From a virus: DNA of 37,838 nt. The stretch is taken from positions 1-37,838 of the IMG/VR virus record IMGVR_UViG_3300027747_000613; one strand, given 5' to 3'. Positions 3,186 through 33,232 of this stretch are shown piece after piece; the stretch's first letter is position 1; each line of letters opens with the position of its first letter. Made by a program: the position numbers and the translations under genes. The notes beneath the pieces were generated by a model. That model was not told where the DNA came from. It ran no database searches and was given only the letters and a program-made list of their open reading frames with translations.

Positions 3186-3812
3186 ATGGATGATTTACAT
3201 TACTTATACTTAATTACTAGAGATGATGGCGAGAAATATGTTGGAGTAACTATTAACCCACATAAAAGAAAGCAGGAGCACTTTAGTGGCAGGGGTAATA
3301 AGCATTTAATTAATAGAATTTTTAATATGGAAATACTAGATACTGGCAGCAGAGAGCACATTTACGGTCTTGAATCTGAGGCAATACGTTCTCATAATTG
3401 CTCATTAAACATAGCTCCTGGAGGTAGATTTTCTTTTAATCCAGTTAGAGGTGAACAAAGCCACTTCGCCATATTAAATGAAGAAATAGTATTAGAAATA
3501 AAGCAGGCCCTACTACAAAATAGAAATATTAACTACGATGCATTAGCTAAAAAATATAGTGTATCAAGGAATACTATAAGTGGGATTGCTAATAATAGGA
3601 ACTGGAAACACGTCGGCCCTACTATACCTAAACGTACTGGAATTATAAACAATGAAGGGTTTATTAGCACAGTAAAAAAGTTATGGCTTGAAGACAGACT
3701 AACAATAGGACAGATAGCTGGTCTGACCGGAAAAGGTAGAGGTACTATATCTAGGATTGTTAGTAAGTTTAACAAGAAAGCTATAGGAATATTAGGAGAG
3801 CTACAAGTATGA
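3186..3812 (+). CDS. GIY-YIG homing endonuclease with helix-turn-helix DNA-binding domains
   Basis: This 208-residue protein is a free-standing GIY-YIG nuclease of the T4 Seg type. Such enzymes cut related genomes lacking the gene and so spread it by recombination. The nuclease domain fills about residues 5-75: YLYLI (6-10), KYVGVT (17-22), the conserved arginine in HKRK (residue 28), and a catalytic-type glutamate in GLESEA (63 or 65). The C-terminal half has two helix-turn-helix-like segments, at about 97-141 (ALAKKYSVSRNTISGI) and 160-193 (IGQIAGLTGKGRGTISRIV), which would read the target site. GGAG at 3177-3180 is well placed for ATG 3186. The gene lies between the ssb terminator and gp47, and its last bases overlap gp47 as ATGA. 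It is more AT-rich in codon use than ssb. No intron is evident around it. Confidence 0.85.
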   Translation: MDDLHYLYLITRDDGEKYVGVTINPHKRKQEHFSGRGNKHLINRIFNMEILDTGSREHIYGLESEAIRSHNCSLNIAPGGRFSFNPVRGEQSHFAILNEEIVLEIKQALLQNRNINYDALAKKYSVSRNTISGIANNRNWKHVGPTIPKRTGIINNEGFISTVKKLWLEDRLTIGQIAGLTGKGRGTISRIVSKFNKKAIGILGELQV

Positions 3813-28247: not shown

Positions 28248-29735
28248 TTAAGAAGTCTGTGTACCTGGGTACTTGATACCAACAACTGCTGGAGCATCTG
28301 CAATGATTTCTCTGAAACCTAGACGCTGTGTGGTTGTTAGTACTCTGTACTGGCTTTCAACTAGGTACTGACTTTCTACAGTTAGGCCACGCTGACGTGT
28401 GATTAGGAAGTTACGTGTATTAACTGCTAGAGCAGCATAAGTTCCCTGTGCACTGCTGTTTGCGAACTCGTCAGAAACTAGTACTGATGATCCGAAGATC
28501 TGACCAACTTCACCGTTCATCTTTGTTGCAATGTTACCTACTAGGTTGAAGTCCTGGAACTCTGAATCCTGTAGTAGATCGAAGTATGCAGTCTGTGAAA
28601 CAATATAAACAACATCAGTTGGGCGAATACCATACTTACCCATTTTCTTACGAGCAGCTAGTAGTGCTATAGCTGTAATACTGGTTTTATCTGATGTACC
28701 TGGTGTTGCCTGATTTATGGTATTTGAGTTAGTGATATAACGAGCAGATGATGTATTACAATAAGTAGTTAGACCACCAAGACCTGTACCAGAAGTAATT
28801 GTTGATGAAGTGTACTGTGCGTTCTGTGCAGCAGCAGTAGCAATATAGTTATCTGTATTGGTAGTTCCTGCAGTACCACCGTGACCACCATGAAGAATCA
28901 TATTCTCAACACCACGAGCGTGCTGACGAATCATTCCCTCACGTAGTAGTGGAAGAATAGGAATGATTGAATCCTCTTCAGTTTCGTTAGCTAGATAAGT
29001 CTTAGCTACCATCTTAACTGTACGAAGATCGATTTCTCTTAGTGTGAAGCCAGCAGTACCTGAACCTGTTCCTGAACGCTCATCTAGAGTAGTGGTACCA
29101 GCGGCTGGTCCACTACCAATTGAGTTGTTGTTAACAGTAGCGTAGCTTGTGTCTGGCATGATTGGTAGAATCATGCTTGCTGAATTCATTTGGATTTCGC
29201 GGAATAGAGGAGCTAGAACTAGCTCTAGCTGGATTTCGCGCTCTAGATTTTGTGAAACTTCACGCTCTAAGCTGTCGCTTGATACAACTACCGATGATAG
29301 TGAGTTAATTGCAGATGCCTTTTGTAGTACTTCCTTTGCGTAGGCTGTTTCATATCCCTTTCCGGTGATACGTCCTAGTAGGAATGCATTCTCCATTTCT
29401 GGTAGAAGTTCCTTCTTCCAAGAGTCACTGACATCGCCGCGATCAGCAAATATGCGCTTGCTGTTAGCAATAGCCTGTAGTTCTGCTGACTTTTCGTTAA
29501 TTTCTGTACGTAGGCCCTCTAGCTTGGTATCTAGCTCGGTCTTATCATTAGCAAAACGCTTTTCTAGTTCTGCATATAGTTTTTCTGAGCCGGTTTCTAG
29601 AACCTTGGCTACGATCTTATCTTCTGCTGCCTTTGCTTCTGCTGCCTTTGCAACTTCTGCTGCTTCAACAGCCTTTTGTGCTGCTAGAGCATCTGCAACT
29701 GCCTTCTGAAGTGTTTCGTTAGTAATTTCGTCCAT
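28248..29735 (-). CDS. Major capsid protein from internal in-frame start (alternative product)
   Basis: An in-frame ATG (29735-29733) at codon 563 of the long fusion is preceded by AAGGAA (29748-29743) with 7-base spacing. It would yield a 495-residue protein: a scaffold (delta) domain of about 90 residues, then the HK97-fold capsid subunit. That is close to the size of ordinary HK97-type capsid precursors (HK97 gp5 is 385 residues with a 102-residue delta domain). The C-terminal end has VLTTTQRLGFREIIADAPAVVGI, a typical closing strand of this capsid class. Since hundreds of capsid copies are needed but few protease copies, separate initiation here would set the ratio. It shares the frame with the fusion, so both products are possible. 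Confidence 0.6.
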   Translation of the reverse strand: MDEITNETLQKAVADALAAQKAVEAAEVAKAAEAKAAEDKIVAKVLETGSEKLYAELEKRFANDKTELDTKLEGLRTEINEKSAELQAIANSKRIFADRGDVSDSWKKELLPEMENAFLLGRITGKGYETAYAKEVLQKASAINSLSSVVVSSDSLEREVSQNLEREIQLELVLAPLFREIQMNSASMILPIMPDTSYATVNNNSIGSGPAAGTTTLDERSGTGSGTAGFTLREIDLRTVKMVAKTYLANETEEDSIIPILPLLREGMIRQHARGVENMILHGGHGGTAGTTNTDNYIATAAAQNAQYTSSTITSGTGLGGLTTYCNTSSARYITNSNTINQATPGTSDKTSITAIALLAARKKMGKYGIRPTDVVYIVSQTAYFDLLQDSEFQDFNLVGNIATKMNGEVGQIFGSSVLVSDEFANSSAQGTYAALAVNTRNFLITRQRGLTVESQYLVESQYRVLTTTQRLGFREIIADAPAVVGIKYPGTQTS

Positions 29736-31421
29736 TTTTAATTTCCTTGACGCCTGTTTAGCGCCCTCTGATGAGCCTCCGGTTTCAGCGGAAGGCTGAC
29801 CACCTAGAGCATTTTCAAATTGTTTTCTAAAGGTTAGATAATCATCTTGATTATCGAATGATTTAGCTACAGAGAATGTAGCGTCTTGGTTACAAGGTAC
29901 TGATACTACAGAAACTTCGAGAAGCTCTGCATCTTTGATTATTAGTCCATCTTTTTCTTGATCATAATCTGCATCCTTAATTAAAAAGCCTACAGAGAAG
30001 GTAGTTAGAACTCCTTCTTTAACAAGATTATAAACATCTCCAGCACTCTTACTGATAATGCCCTTAATTCTTAGACCTTTACTATCTGTACCCATCTCTA
30101 CGACCTTACCAATAGGCTTATCATAGTTATGGTTAAATAGAAGAATCGGATTAGCTTTATAGTTATTTAAGCCACCTGATTTATTCCAAGCAGAAGCTAG
30201 AATTATATCTGCGGAGCGATCCACTGAAATGGTACTTGCATACCCATCAATTTTAAGCTCCTCATTTCCAGTATCTACTGCTTTGATAGTAGAATCAAAT
30301 CTAAAGATCTTAGTTACTGGTTTATTAGCACTAAGAGCCCACATTTGACCATCTAAGTTCGGTACGGCTACTGTAGGTTCCTCGTCACCCATTTCGATCT
30401 CCTCAGTCTCACCCGAGTCATCTGCATCTAGTTCCCAATCAGCACAAGTTCTTATACTGGTGCAAGTTATATCCCACTTGGTGCAATGTCCAGACTCTGC
30501 TGTAACATCTGCCCACTTAGGTGTTAGTGGTAAATCTGATGCTTTAAAAGTAGAGGACTTCAAGCAGTCTAAAATTTTTGGTGAGTTATCATAGTACTCA
30601 CAGTTTTGGCACTGGCGAACTCTAGCTTCATTTGATGAAACCATCCATTGTTCAGCCATGTAGTTCCAATATGTATCACTAGGTGCGGTAGGGTCCGCTG
30701 GGCCTAGGTTAGCTTCTTTAATAGCTACTAAGTGATTAGCTATATTAGCATCAGCATCCTGAGTTACTACAGGACAAGGTGTATCCTCTAGAGATTTTGA
30801 TGATACTTTTGTTAGTGTAGAGAACTTGTGTCCTACTAAAGTATCTGTCTCTTTACCCTCTTTATAAATTCTAATAAGAGCGGCTGGATCCTCAGCGGAT
30901 CCTTCAATAGAAAAAGAGCTATTAGGGACTTTTAAACTGCCGTCTCTAACTATACGCTCTATTTTTCCCTTCGCTGTACCACCTGAAGAACCCCATGTTA
31001 CAAGGTCTCCTACCTTCAGATCTTTTGGACCTGATTTTTCTTCGTCTGTAAACTCTTTAGTATAGTCAAAGCTTTTACCTTCAAGACGATCTAGTGTTGC
31101 TGATTTGGCCTTAGCCCATGTCTGACCGGCGTCTCCGCCCCAAAGTGCCCAAGCAACTCTACCATTAGAAGGATAGCCAGGCTCTCCAGGACTAAAGCCC
31201 TCGCCTTTCTTATCTACTTCATGTCTGCTAAAAAAGCTATGCATTCTTCGTACTGTACTAGGTGATAGCTCTTCTTTACTCACTAGTTGGTGAGCACGAG
31301 CCATACCTACAGCAGTTCCGCCAGCATGTCCTTCTTTTTTCCAGTCTAGTGCTTTTTGAGCTTCTTTAGCCATACCATCAGTAGGAGTTAGATCAATCTC
31401 TTCTCCGCCTACTTTAGCCAT
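28248..31421 (-). CDS. Fused prohead protease, scaffold and major capsid protein with N-terminal accessory modules
   Basis: One uninterrupted 1057-residue frame. Modules in order: residues 1-115, a basic helical module with STVRRMHSFFSRHEVDKK and RVAWALWGGDAG, often found in phage prohead proteins; 131-207, a Tudor-like module like DUF2945 (KVGDLVTWGSSGGTAKGKI...HKFSTLTK); 270-328, a Cys-rich patch (Cys271, 274, 286, 313, 320, 326) that may bind metal; 370-520, an S78-type prohead protease with His431, Ser476 and a Glu in ELLEVS (499 or 502); about 563-655, an Ala/Lys/Glu coiled-coil scaffold (delta domain); about 656-1057, an HK97-fold capsid protein. HK97 itself has protease and capsid as two genes. 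GGGAGA precedes ATG 31421. Methionine 563 has its own perfect ribosome-binding site, so capsid protein can also be made alone. Confidence 0.85.
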   Translation of the reverse strand: MAKVGGEEIDLTPTDGMAKEAQKALDWKKEGHAGGTAVGMARAHQLVSKEELSPSTVRRMHSFFSRHEVDKKGEGFSPGEPGYPSNGRVAWALWGGDAGQTWAKAKSATLDRLEGKSFDYTKEFTDEEKSGPKDLKVGDLVTWGSSGGTAKGKIERIVRDGSLKVPNSSFSIEGSAEDPAALIRIYKEGKETDTLVGHKFSTLTKVSSKSLEDTPCPVVTQDADANIANHLVAIKEANLGPADPTAPSDTYWNYMAEQWMVSSNEARVRQCQNCEYYDNSPKILDCLKSSTFKASDLPLTPKWADVTAESGHCTKWDITCTSIRTCADWELDADDSGETEEIEMGDEEPTVAVPNLDGQMWALSANKPVTKIFRFDSTIKAVDTGNEELKIDGYASTISVDRSADIILASAWNKSGGLNNYKANPILLFNHNYDKPIGKVVEMGTDSKGLRIKGIISKSAGDVYNLVKEGVLTTFSVGFLIKDADYDQEKDGLIIKDAELLEVSVVSVPCNQDATFSVAKSFDNQDDYLTFRKQFENALGGQPSAETGGSSEGAKQASRKLKMDEITNETLQKAVADALAAQKAVEAAEVAKAAEAKAAEDKIVAKVLETGSEKLYAELEKRFANDKTELDTKLEGLRTEINEKSAELQAIANSKRIFADRGDVSDSWKKELLPEMENAFLLGRITGKGYETAYAKEVLQKASAINSLSSVVVSSDSLEREVSQNLEREIQLELVLAPLFREIQMNSASMILPIMPDTSYATVNNNSIGSGPAAGTTTLDERSGTGSGTAGFTLREIDLRTVKMVAKTYLANETEEDSIIPILPLLREGMIRQHARGVENMILHGGHGGTAGTTNTDNYIATAAAQNAQYTSSTITSGTGLGGLTTYCNTSSARYITNSNTINQATPGTSDKTSITAIALLAARKKMGKYGIRPTDVVYIVSQTAYFDLLQDSEFQDFNLVGNIATKMNGEVGQIFGSSVLVSDEFANSSAQGTYAALAVNTRNFLITRQRGLTVESQYLVESQYRVLTTTQRLGFREIIADAPAVVGIKYPGTQTS

Positions 31422-31423
31422 TA

Positions 31424-31684
31424 TTAATCTCCCTTAGTTTTTTGAACTACTGGTGCGACTTCTGGCTTTTTTGGTTCTTCTTTGACAATATCTACTTCGA
31501 TACTGTAATTACTAAGATCTCCGATCATATTGATTAATCTTCCCCAAGAACCGATAGTTCTTTTGATTAAAACGAATCTAATAGGGGCGTCCTCTGCGTT
31601 TTTATATTCCTCCATAGTCATTACTCCGCCCTTAGACGCAAAGTAATTACCAAGTGTAGAAACTATACTTGTTTTTCTTGTCAT
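31424..31684 (-). CDS. Hypothetical protein between portal and protease
   Basis: I do not recognise this 86-residue protein. It starts with MTRKTSIVSTLGNYF, has a middle segment with IRFVLIKRTIGSWGRLINMIGDL, and ends in a Lys/Glu/Pro/Val-rich tail (KEEPKKPEVAPVVQK) that looks disordered. The first ATG overlaps the portal stop by ATGA. The downstream protease-capsid gene starts two bases after its stop. Its place suggests a small head-assembly factor, but nothing in the sequence identifies the function. No membrane segment or cysteine motif is present. Confidence 0.6.
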   Translation of the reverse strand: MTRKTSIVSTLGNYFASKGGVMTMEEYKNAEDAPIRFVLIKRTIGSWGRLINMIGDLSNYSIEVDIVKEEPKKPEVAPVVQKTKGD

Positions 31685-32865
31685 TGTTCACTTCCTGTAT
31701 TGTCTTGAGGCTTACCACCCTGTGAAGGGTCTGCAGCGCTTCCAGCTACATTTTGTGGCACTCTAATATCATTATGGCCCACAAGTGGAAGCCTGCCCAT
31801 GCCTTCTCTAGCTTCATTAGCAGTTAGAATACCGCCGTTTACTAGTGTAGAGTAAAATGCTGCTTCATCTTTTAGTTCTGGCTGTACTGCGGGAATTCCT
31901 GCGACATTTTCTGTTATTTCGAAGCCAAAAAACATTTGGTAAGCAGAGTTCATCTTTTTTATCATAGGTATAATAGTTTCTAAGTAATATAGTCTATGAT
32001 TTGGCCTAAGATTAGCGTTGTTTCCGCTATCTATTAGAACTGGCGGAACTCCCAATGCTTTTAGAATAATTTTTTCGTTAGAGTCTATGGACGCTGTAAA
32101 GTCTAGATCCTTAAAATTAACATTAGATAGGGAATCAACTTCCATACCTCCATCTAGGATCATAGGATTTCGTCCACCAGACTGTGGTCTATAAGACTGC
32201 TTCCAGTCTTCTTTCATTCTCTCTTTAATACGAGAACTTAAAGTATCTGGGCTCTTAATTACTAGTCCTGGAACTGCTCCATTTGTGAAGAAGTTATCTT
32301 GGAAGTCTCTCATGTTTTTCATGAGTTTCATAGTACGAAGAGCAGGTTTTAGTCTAGAGGCTCCTCTATAGAGAGACCTTGAACTATTATCTTTGATATG
32401 AATAATTTCTTCTACTTTAAAGTCTACTGTACCCTGAAATGTATACTTCTCAACATATGTTTTTTGGTCAGAATAAATAATTACTCTATTAGCAGGTAAT
32501 TGATATAAATAGATACCATCATAGTATATGAAGGCATTTCCATCTAGTATTAGATCCATGAAAATATTGCGTCTAAAAGAGTGCATATCCTGATATGGAT
32601 TAGGTTGTACATTTAATAATGTATCAACAGTTTTTCTTTTAATACCAGACTGTTTTGGAAAACCTACTTTTTCAAGTCCTATCTTGTAATTTATTTCTGC
32701 GGCATCATCAACTACCATGTTGACCGCCCTATTAACTATTTCTAATGTTTCGTAATAGTTAACATATAACTGTTCTGGCTCACTGGTAGGACTCTGGGGC
32801 TCCATATAGGAGATCCAGCGCTGACCAGGATTTAATTTCTCAACTAGCCAACTTCCTAGCTTCAT
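31681..32865 (-). CDS. Portal protein (HK97 family)
   Basis: This 394-residue protein forms the ring through which DNA enters and leaves the head. Typical segments are AVNMVVDDAAEINYKI (about 47-62), QPNPYQDMHSFRRNIFMDLILDGNAFIYY (about 87-115), EEIIHIKD (about 153-160), SLYRGASRLKPAL, and a long helical region ending in LGVPPVLIDSGNNAN. The length agrees with HK97 gp3 (about 420). AAGGAG lies 5 bases before ATG 32865. The start overlaps the HNH gene by 26 bases, and the packaging order (terminase, HNH, portal, protease, capsid) is as expected. Confidence 0.92.
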   Translation of the reverse strand: MKLGSWLVEKLNPGQRWISYMEPQSPTSEPEQLYVNYYETLEIVNRAVNMVVDDAAEINYKIGLEKVGFPKQSGIKRKTVDTLLNVQPNPYQDMHSFRRNIFMDLILDGNAFIYYDGIYLYQLPANRVIIYSDQKTYVEKYTFQGTVDFKVEEIIHIKDNSSRSLYRGASRLKPALRTMKLMKNMRDFQDNFFTNGAVPGLVIKSPDTLSSRIKERMKEDWKQSYRPQSGGRNPMILDGGMEVDSLSNVNFKDLDFTASIDSNEKIILKALGVPPVLIDSGNNANLRPNHRLYYLETIIPMIKKMNSAYQMFFGFEITENVAGIPAVQPELKDEAAFYSTLVNGGILTANEAREGMGRLPLVGHNDIRVPQNVAGSAADPSQGGKPQDNTGSEQ

Positions 32866-33232
32866 ATTTCTCCTTTTGGATTCTTACCCAGTTTTTCTGC
32901 TTATCAGCAGTCGAAAGCGCAGGATCCTTACCATAGACACTGTGAAGCTTCAAGTGATGCTCATGACATAACGTTACAGTTTGGTGGTAGACTTTATCTT
33001 CTTCTTCATGTATAAATTCGTCTCTGATTTTCAAGATGTCGTCTACGGTTTTAACTGTATAACCTTTTGTCTTACACCACTTATTAAACAATGGAGTCAT
33101 CGTATAATAATGATGAAAGTCAAGAGAGGTTGTTGCCTCACAAATTTCACATTGAGAACCTTTATCATATCTAGACTTTGCCCGATCGCGAACATATTTA
33201 ATTGGGTCGCGAAGCAGAGTTGTTATTGACAT
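32840..33232 (-). CDS. HNH endonuclease associated with packaging
   Basis: This 130-residue HNH nuclease has the first metal pair CEIC (28-31) followed by LDFHHYY, and a second half VTLCHEHHLKLHSVYG that supplies the closing Cys, the HNH asparagine-position histidine and the metal-side His. Small HNH proteins beside the large terminase are needed with it for cos cleavage in several HK97-like phages, and this gene has that position. A selfish (homing) role cannot be excluded. ATG 33232 has AAAGGAG upstream, and a promoter at 33257-33285 begins a short leader of about 18 bases. Confidence 0.85.
   Translation of the reverse strand: MSITTLLRDPIKYVRDRAKSRYDKGSQCEICEATTSLDFHHYYTMTPLFNKWCKTKGYTVKTVDDILKIRDEFIHEEEDKVYHQTVTLCHEHHLKLHSVYGKDPALSTADKQKNWVRIQKEKYEARKLAS

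Follow-up and report, generated by a model that had tools for sequence, protein, structure and literature searches.

A conserved internal start in a protease–capsid fusion gene of aquatic phages points to a probable nested gene pair

The window, the whole 37,838-nucleotide stretch of lake-phage DNA analysed here (IMG/VR record IMGVR_UViG_3300027747_000613), carries on its minus strand one long frame in which three accessory modules, an S78-type protease, a scaffold domain and an HK97-fold capsid subunit are fused. We propose, at a probability of roughly 0.84, that this frame is a nested gene pair with a shared stop codon, in which an internal start would supply a free scaffold–capsid precursor beside the 1057-residue fusion. 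Sequence comparison reveals the fusion itself, a conserved internal start site, constraint at the nucleotide level and a predicted hairpin. The sequence-only reading of the same DNA had described the fusion and overlooked its regulatory part, the putative internal start at the joint.

Architecture of the fused gene and its relatives

The frame runs uninterrupted from the ATG at 31421 to the stop at 28248 (Table 1), and profile matches agree with the order of parts first read from the sequence. The protease scores above the curated cut-offs of its families (PF04586, 69.2 bits vs 21; TIGR01543, 76.8 vs 59), and PHROG 80 matches residues 203-632 (E 8e-48). Its supposed catalytic residues, already named in the sequence-only reading (His431, Ser476, Glu499 and Glu502), are invariant in a 33-row alignment. 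Phage_capsid (PF05065) matches residues 771-1037 (E 4e-4), scoring 20.3 bits on the protein against a cut-off of 24.2, and 26 bits once neighbouring stretches are included. A profile of seven relatives matched the solved T5 major head protein far more strongly (8ho3, E 1.8e-77, chain residues 17-444, from the scaffold domain to near the C-terminus; 5tjt, E 4e-68). Homology to this T5-type protein (pb8) spans the scaffold and capsid domains, here encoded within a longer gene rather than a gene of their own.

The scaffold domain is predicted to form long helices from residue 566, at low to medium confidence, and a cleavage point before the capsid subunit, near residue 701, would be expected from T5. 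The modular picture is borne out by profiles for modules 1 and 2, the protease and the capsid, whereas module 3 has no Pfam match and the structure models reach pLDDT values of 48 for the N-terminal part and 54 at full length, too low to support fold searches. No second capsid gene was found elsewhere in the contig. Two other ORFs, judged from their sequences, appear to encode endonucleases, one of GIY-YIG type at 3186-3812 and one of HNH type at 32840-33232, between the terminase and portal ORFs.

Table 1 Features of the fused gene and of its joint, in window positions
Feature	Position	Strand	Basis
Long ORF, 1057 aa (accessory modules, S78 protease, scaffold domain, capsid protein)	28248..31421	-	frame and profile searches
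Shine-Dalgarno of long ORF, AAGGGAG then ATTAATA then ATG	31429..31435	-	-7.7 kcal/mol
Module 1, residues 9-112, PHROG 2859	31086..31397	-	E 9e-32
Module 2, residues 138-191, Hva1_TUDOR domain	30849..31010	-	Pfam E 1.6e-5
Module 3, residues 262-333, Cys-rich CQNCEYY...CLK...GHCTKWDITC...TC	30423..30638	-	sequence; presence varies
Peptidase S78 domain, residues 379-524	29850..30287	-	Pfam E 5.9e-19; TIGR01543 above cut-off
Linker codons 538-562, strongest gene-wide excess of synonymous-codon identity	29736..29810	-	holds after relatedness control
Predicted hairpin GGCGCU-AAACA-GGCGUC, directly 5' of internal Shine-Dalgarno	29749..29765	-	freshwater 5-6 bp, one double change
Internal Shine-Dalgarno AAGGA, 8 nt before ATG563	29744..29748	-	conserved
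Internal start codon ATG, Met563, proposed start of free 495-aa capsid precursor	29733..29735	-	conservation; alignment with T5-like major capsid protein start
Scaffold (delta) domain, residues 563 to ~700	29322..29735	-	predicted long helices; aligned with T5 pb8 residues 1-159
Capsid subunit, HK97 fold of T5 type, residues ~701-1057	28251..29321	-	profile and structure-database matches

The accessory modules vary among relatives. Module 1 occurs in every freshwater relative whose N-terminus is covered, in shortened form in one (L024), and the TUDOR and Cys-rich modules have been gained or lost independently of each other. The TUDOR domain is the best-predicted portion of the N-terminal structure model; a stretch resembling module 3 is annotated as ‘high potential iron-sulfur protein’ in other phages. 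A marine clade is devoid of accessory modules, and its ORFs start at the protease.

Protease and capsid share one frame in 80/80 of the nearest viral contigs (the best 80). After second and third scans the set comprised 162 fused loci with 148 distinct ORFs, of which 160 loci were tabulated and two (L139, L142) recognised as fused on inspection of their frames; these relatives come from top-80 lists and are weighted to near relatives rather than forming a census. The possibility, raised earlier, that a sequencing error, frameshift or hidden stop had created the fusion is thereby ruled out, the near relatives all being open. The earlier reading had also held that relatives with two separate genes throughout would count against it, and the opposite was found: in the set compared, only T5-like phages keep the two genes apart, with a gap of 3-17 nt between protease stop and capsid start (four annotated records). 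In an unrooted tree of protease and capsid, a branch with 100/100 support separates the fused sequences from the rest. Two distant fused loci (L183, L184), which carry an insertion before the joint start, branch beside the T5-like split group. The head gene region of Aeromonas phage AhP_Mru1 (PV190393.1) is fragmented into numerous short hypothetical ORFs, a pattern that resembles frame errors in the deposited sequence. Bacterial genomes yielded just seven weak loci, in contigs of metagenome-assembled genomes and all fused, which point to no firm host.

A putative internal start site at the joint

At Met563 the DNA reads AAGGA-AATTAAAA-ATG. Within the freshwater clade, both the methionine and a Shine-Dalgarno sequence are present in 28/28 rows, the sole internal column with that property. 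The marine clade has mostly GGAGA or AGGAG at about 5-6 nt from the start, in other codon registers. Overall, an in-frame ATG with a Shine-Dalgarno sequence occurs at the joint in 148/148 distinct fused ORFs; 146 of these pass a threshold of -4 kcal/mol by automatic scan, and those of L183 and L184 were found by reading (joint start at Met256, GAGG-AAAACTCA-ATG, -5.8). As the joint peptide differs between sequences (SRKLKM vs TETKMS) and the Shine-Dalgarno falls in different codon registers, it is the RNA, not the peptide, that is conserved.

Chance occurrence of this motif was ruled out by redrawing codons for the same peptide and by using other methionine columns as controls. Over 60 distinct contexts, the mean pairing energy at the joint is -6.64 kcal/mol, vs -2.48 kcal/mol with redrawn codons, and 14/15 control columns have no comparable excess. 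The exceptional column lies in the protease (peptide KDADYM, alignment column 129), where the Shine-Dalgarno exceeds the redrawn-codon prediction. The joint is also more accessible than other methionine sites (0.56 vs 0.42), with a value of 0.67 for the inner site of the window. Met563 aligns with the first methionine of the separate major capsid protein genes of T5-like phages, and the internal product would have a median length of about 485 residues (495 here), vs 458 for pb8. As in nested genes of the lambda C/Nu3 type, the inner ORF has the same frame and the same stop as the outer one, and its internal ribosome site is conserved by selection.

In the window the site is of moderate strength. 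Its pairing energy of -4.9 kcal/mol is weaker than the -7.7 of the long ORF, whose Shine-Dalgarno is kept across the freshwater clade (median -7.2); all such energies assume an E. coli-type anti-Shine-Dalgarno, which may differ from that of the host. Of the other internal ATGs, three outscore Met563, by margins from slight to clear, and two score about equally, so that Met563 is singled out by conservation only, not by site strength. The predicted strengths alone do not favour the inner start, though its site is unusually open.

The strongest of the internal ATGs is Met344 (30390-30392, minus strand), just before the protease, with the Shine-Dalgarno GAGGAGA at -8.3 kcal/mol. It is kept in only 4/15 relatives; the start-like sites nearby vary, and many relatives use another position within this linker for theirs. 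Start-like sites in this linker exceed redrawn codons modestly (-5.6 vs -3.6). A third nested product, a protease–capsid protein lacking the modules, is therefore possible from the Met344 region.

Constraint on synonymous codons marks the same joint. Wherever two sequences share an amino acid we compared their codons, correcting for the amino acid itself and for pairwise relatedness. Codon identity peaks directly 5' of the joint, independently in each clade (z 3.5 and 4.4), and these windows rank highest in the whole alignment of either clade. The constrained stretch is about 75-90 nt long and returns to baseline within a few codons past the start, or at the start codon itself in the marine clade. 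Relatedness within a variable linker was considered as a source of this signal and rejected, as the signal persists after per-pair normalisation.

Most sequences also have a short predicted stem upstream of the Shine-Dalgarno, ending 13-20 nt before the ATG. Its letters vary by lineage (GGGA/UCCC, GAGGA/UCCUC, GGGC/GCCC, GCGAC/GUCGC, GUGAC/GUCAC, GUGGGA/UCCCAC), and the 33-nt hairpin window folds better (-7.1) than other windows of the same ORFs (-3.8) or codon-redrawn sequences (-3.7). In an alignment of 45 marine sequences, 34 cells of the 4-bp core are changed on both sides and zero on a single side. The marine covariation score is 0.361, vs 0.094 in shuffles (0/500 as high) and 0.000-0.104 when the hairpin is slid; relatedness inflates such scores, yet pair 23-34 uses GC, AU, CG and UA. 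The stem reads GGCGCU/GGCGUC in the window's own clade, and the case for a freshwater hairpin rests on position and constraint because only one double change occurs there. No known RNA family matching the joint element was found in Rfam. A similar stem is common ahead of the capsid start in T5-like phages, which suggests that the entire initiation region either predates the fusion or persisted through it.

A capsid-only transcript beginning at a promoter within the ORF, with the internal ribosome site as its ordinary start, is an unlikely source of these signals. Herpesvirus UL26.5 is made in this manner, from a separate transcript with an internal promoter, and the constrained stretch is long enough to fit a promoter plus leader. 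However, what is conserved is the hairpin, not a -10 box. No sigma-70-like site, the type searched for, is present in the ~150 nt upstream on the minus strand, and regional matches to this type number 22 vs a shuffled expectation of 20.7.

Proposed nested products and capsid assembly

We infer from the comparisons how the internal start may be used, the ratio of the products, their co-assembly, the self-release of the protease and the role of the hairpin. In the nested-gene reading, initiation at the ATG at 31421 would give the 1057-residue fusion, probably made in smaller amounts and serving to bring the protease and accessory modules into the prohead. Initiation at the ATG at 29735 would give the 495-residue scaffold–capsid precursor, the equivalent of T5 pb8 and the bulk product. 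Both products would co-assemble through their identical scaffold–capsid parts, so that every fusion molecule would add one protease to the prohead interior; the proposal of the earlier reading, that the protease is delivered as part of a capsid subunit, is plausible. The predicted protease would then remove the scaffold domains, including its own tether, such that the accessory modules leave with the protease and not with every subunit. The small hairpin probably holds the internal Shine-Dalgarno open during translation of the upstream codons. In T5, 775 copies of pb8 have their scaffold removed by pb11 (PMC5292684), and by this measure a minority of fusions would suffice.

A single polyprotein would instead be the only product (1057 residues here, ~690 in the marine clade), the protease trimming itself and the accessory parts off every subunit, as proposed for PAJU2. 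The continuous frame in all relatives compared and the intact protease agree with such a scheme. So does virion proteomics of phage B8b, where 937 spectra cover 42.7% of a 685-residue peptidase ORF, which fits survival of the capsid part alone. It would nevertheless load each prohead with proteases by the hundred, together with bulky accessory modules, and it leaves unexplained why an in-frame start, a Shine-Dalgarno, a hairpin and synonymous constraint are kept in every lineage. The sequence-only reading had argued that, if the whole fusion is one product, its ratio to capsid must be controlled. The need for ratio control stands, and a single product is very unlikely given the conserved Shine-Dalgarno and ATG at residue 563; an internal start there for the capsid precursor would answer the ratio question. 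That the site is a now unused relic of an ancestral separate capsid gene is scarcely credible in spite of its alignment with the T5-like gene start, as a relic should decay, and the site is present in 148/148 ORFs with diverged joint peptides, accompanied by synonymous constraint and covariation.

We tentatively suggest, at somewhat less than even confidence, that a covarying RNA element within the coding sequence (hairpin plus open Shine-Dalgarno) sets how many subunits bear a protease relative to plain ones, and might also regulate this ratio. The element would be the translation start of the ancestral capsid gene, kept intact inside the fused gene across a large group of aquatic phages.

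Relation to known systems and implications

In T5-like phages (Demerecviridae), protease and capsid belong to the same families as in the window and follow each other in the same order (pb11 protease, pb8 major head protein). The ribosome site for their capsid gene is at the 3' end of the protease gene, in several cases with a small upstream hairpin. Unlike the window, they keep two genes with a stop between them and a protease without accessory modules.

Protease–capsid fusions as such are already known (NF045541, PAJU2, PPpW-3 and many isolates), and PAJU2 has been described as encoding a capsid polyprotein, according to work cited in PMC8306868. These known fusions (NF045541, PAJU2, PPpW-3, VP882, phiHAP-1) resemble the window in joining S78 protease, scaffold and HK97-fold capsid in one frame, but belong to another capsid lineage, and the annotations compared contain no internal start, though several have a joint site. 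The window protein scores 51.1 bits against NF045541, below its cut-off of 525, with the best stretch at residues 422-682.

We also compared fourteen fusions from cultured phages, CRP-811 among them, whose capsids are of a different lineage. In CRP-811, CRP-822, R4C, VP882 and phiHAP-1, no internal site anywhere in the ORF looks more like a start than the one at the joint, and the joint site ranks near the top in PPpW-3, Persinger and RcCronus; S-CBS1, S-CBS3, FoX2 and Mano have no good joint site. Codon redrawing gives a strong result only for CRP-822 and VP882 and a weak one for most of these fusions. The pattern suggests that internal initiation may be a general way of running protease–capsid fusions. 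In the Synechococcus phages S-CBS1 and S-CBS3 and the Roseobacter phages CRP-811 and CRP-822, a single ORF, annotated only as major capsid or head protein, encodes module 1, an S78 protease and a capsid, plus a TUDOR domain in CRP-811; this architecture therefore exists in isolates. They differ from the window in capsid lineage, and the internal Shine-Dalgarno is strong in the CRP phages but absent in the S-CBS phages.

Nested starts in protease genes have precedents. In lambda C/Nu3, an in-frame internal start in the protease gene yields a C-terminal scaffold product, and Mu I/Z likewise has an in-frame start within the protease gene. In both, the inner product is scaffold only and the capsid a separate gene, whereas the inner product of the window would comprise scaffold and capsid. 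An in-frame internal start giving a C-terminal product of the protease gene has been reported for the Mu-like phage PaMx73 (PMC4378225). An inner start that yields scaffold plus capsid within a protease–capsid fusion, with a selected RNA element, was not found in the open-licence papers searched.

Many phages have single-ORF fusions whose annotation is a lone major capsid protein of 600-1000 residues; taken as annotated, every subunit would come with its own protease. With a hidden internal start, this puzzle of the protease-to-capsid ratio would be settled, and the capsid precursor predicted for a large group of uncultured aquatic phages would need correction. The signature described here, a joint ribosome site with synonymous constraint and a covarying hairpin, is searchable in other fused viral genes. 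A hidden start of this kind would show how two genes can lose the stop codon between them and yet keep separate control.
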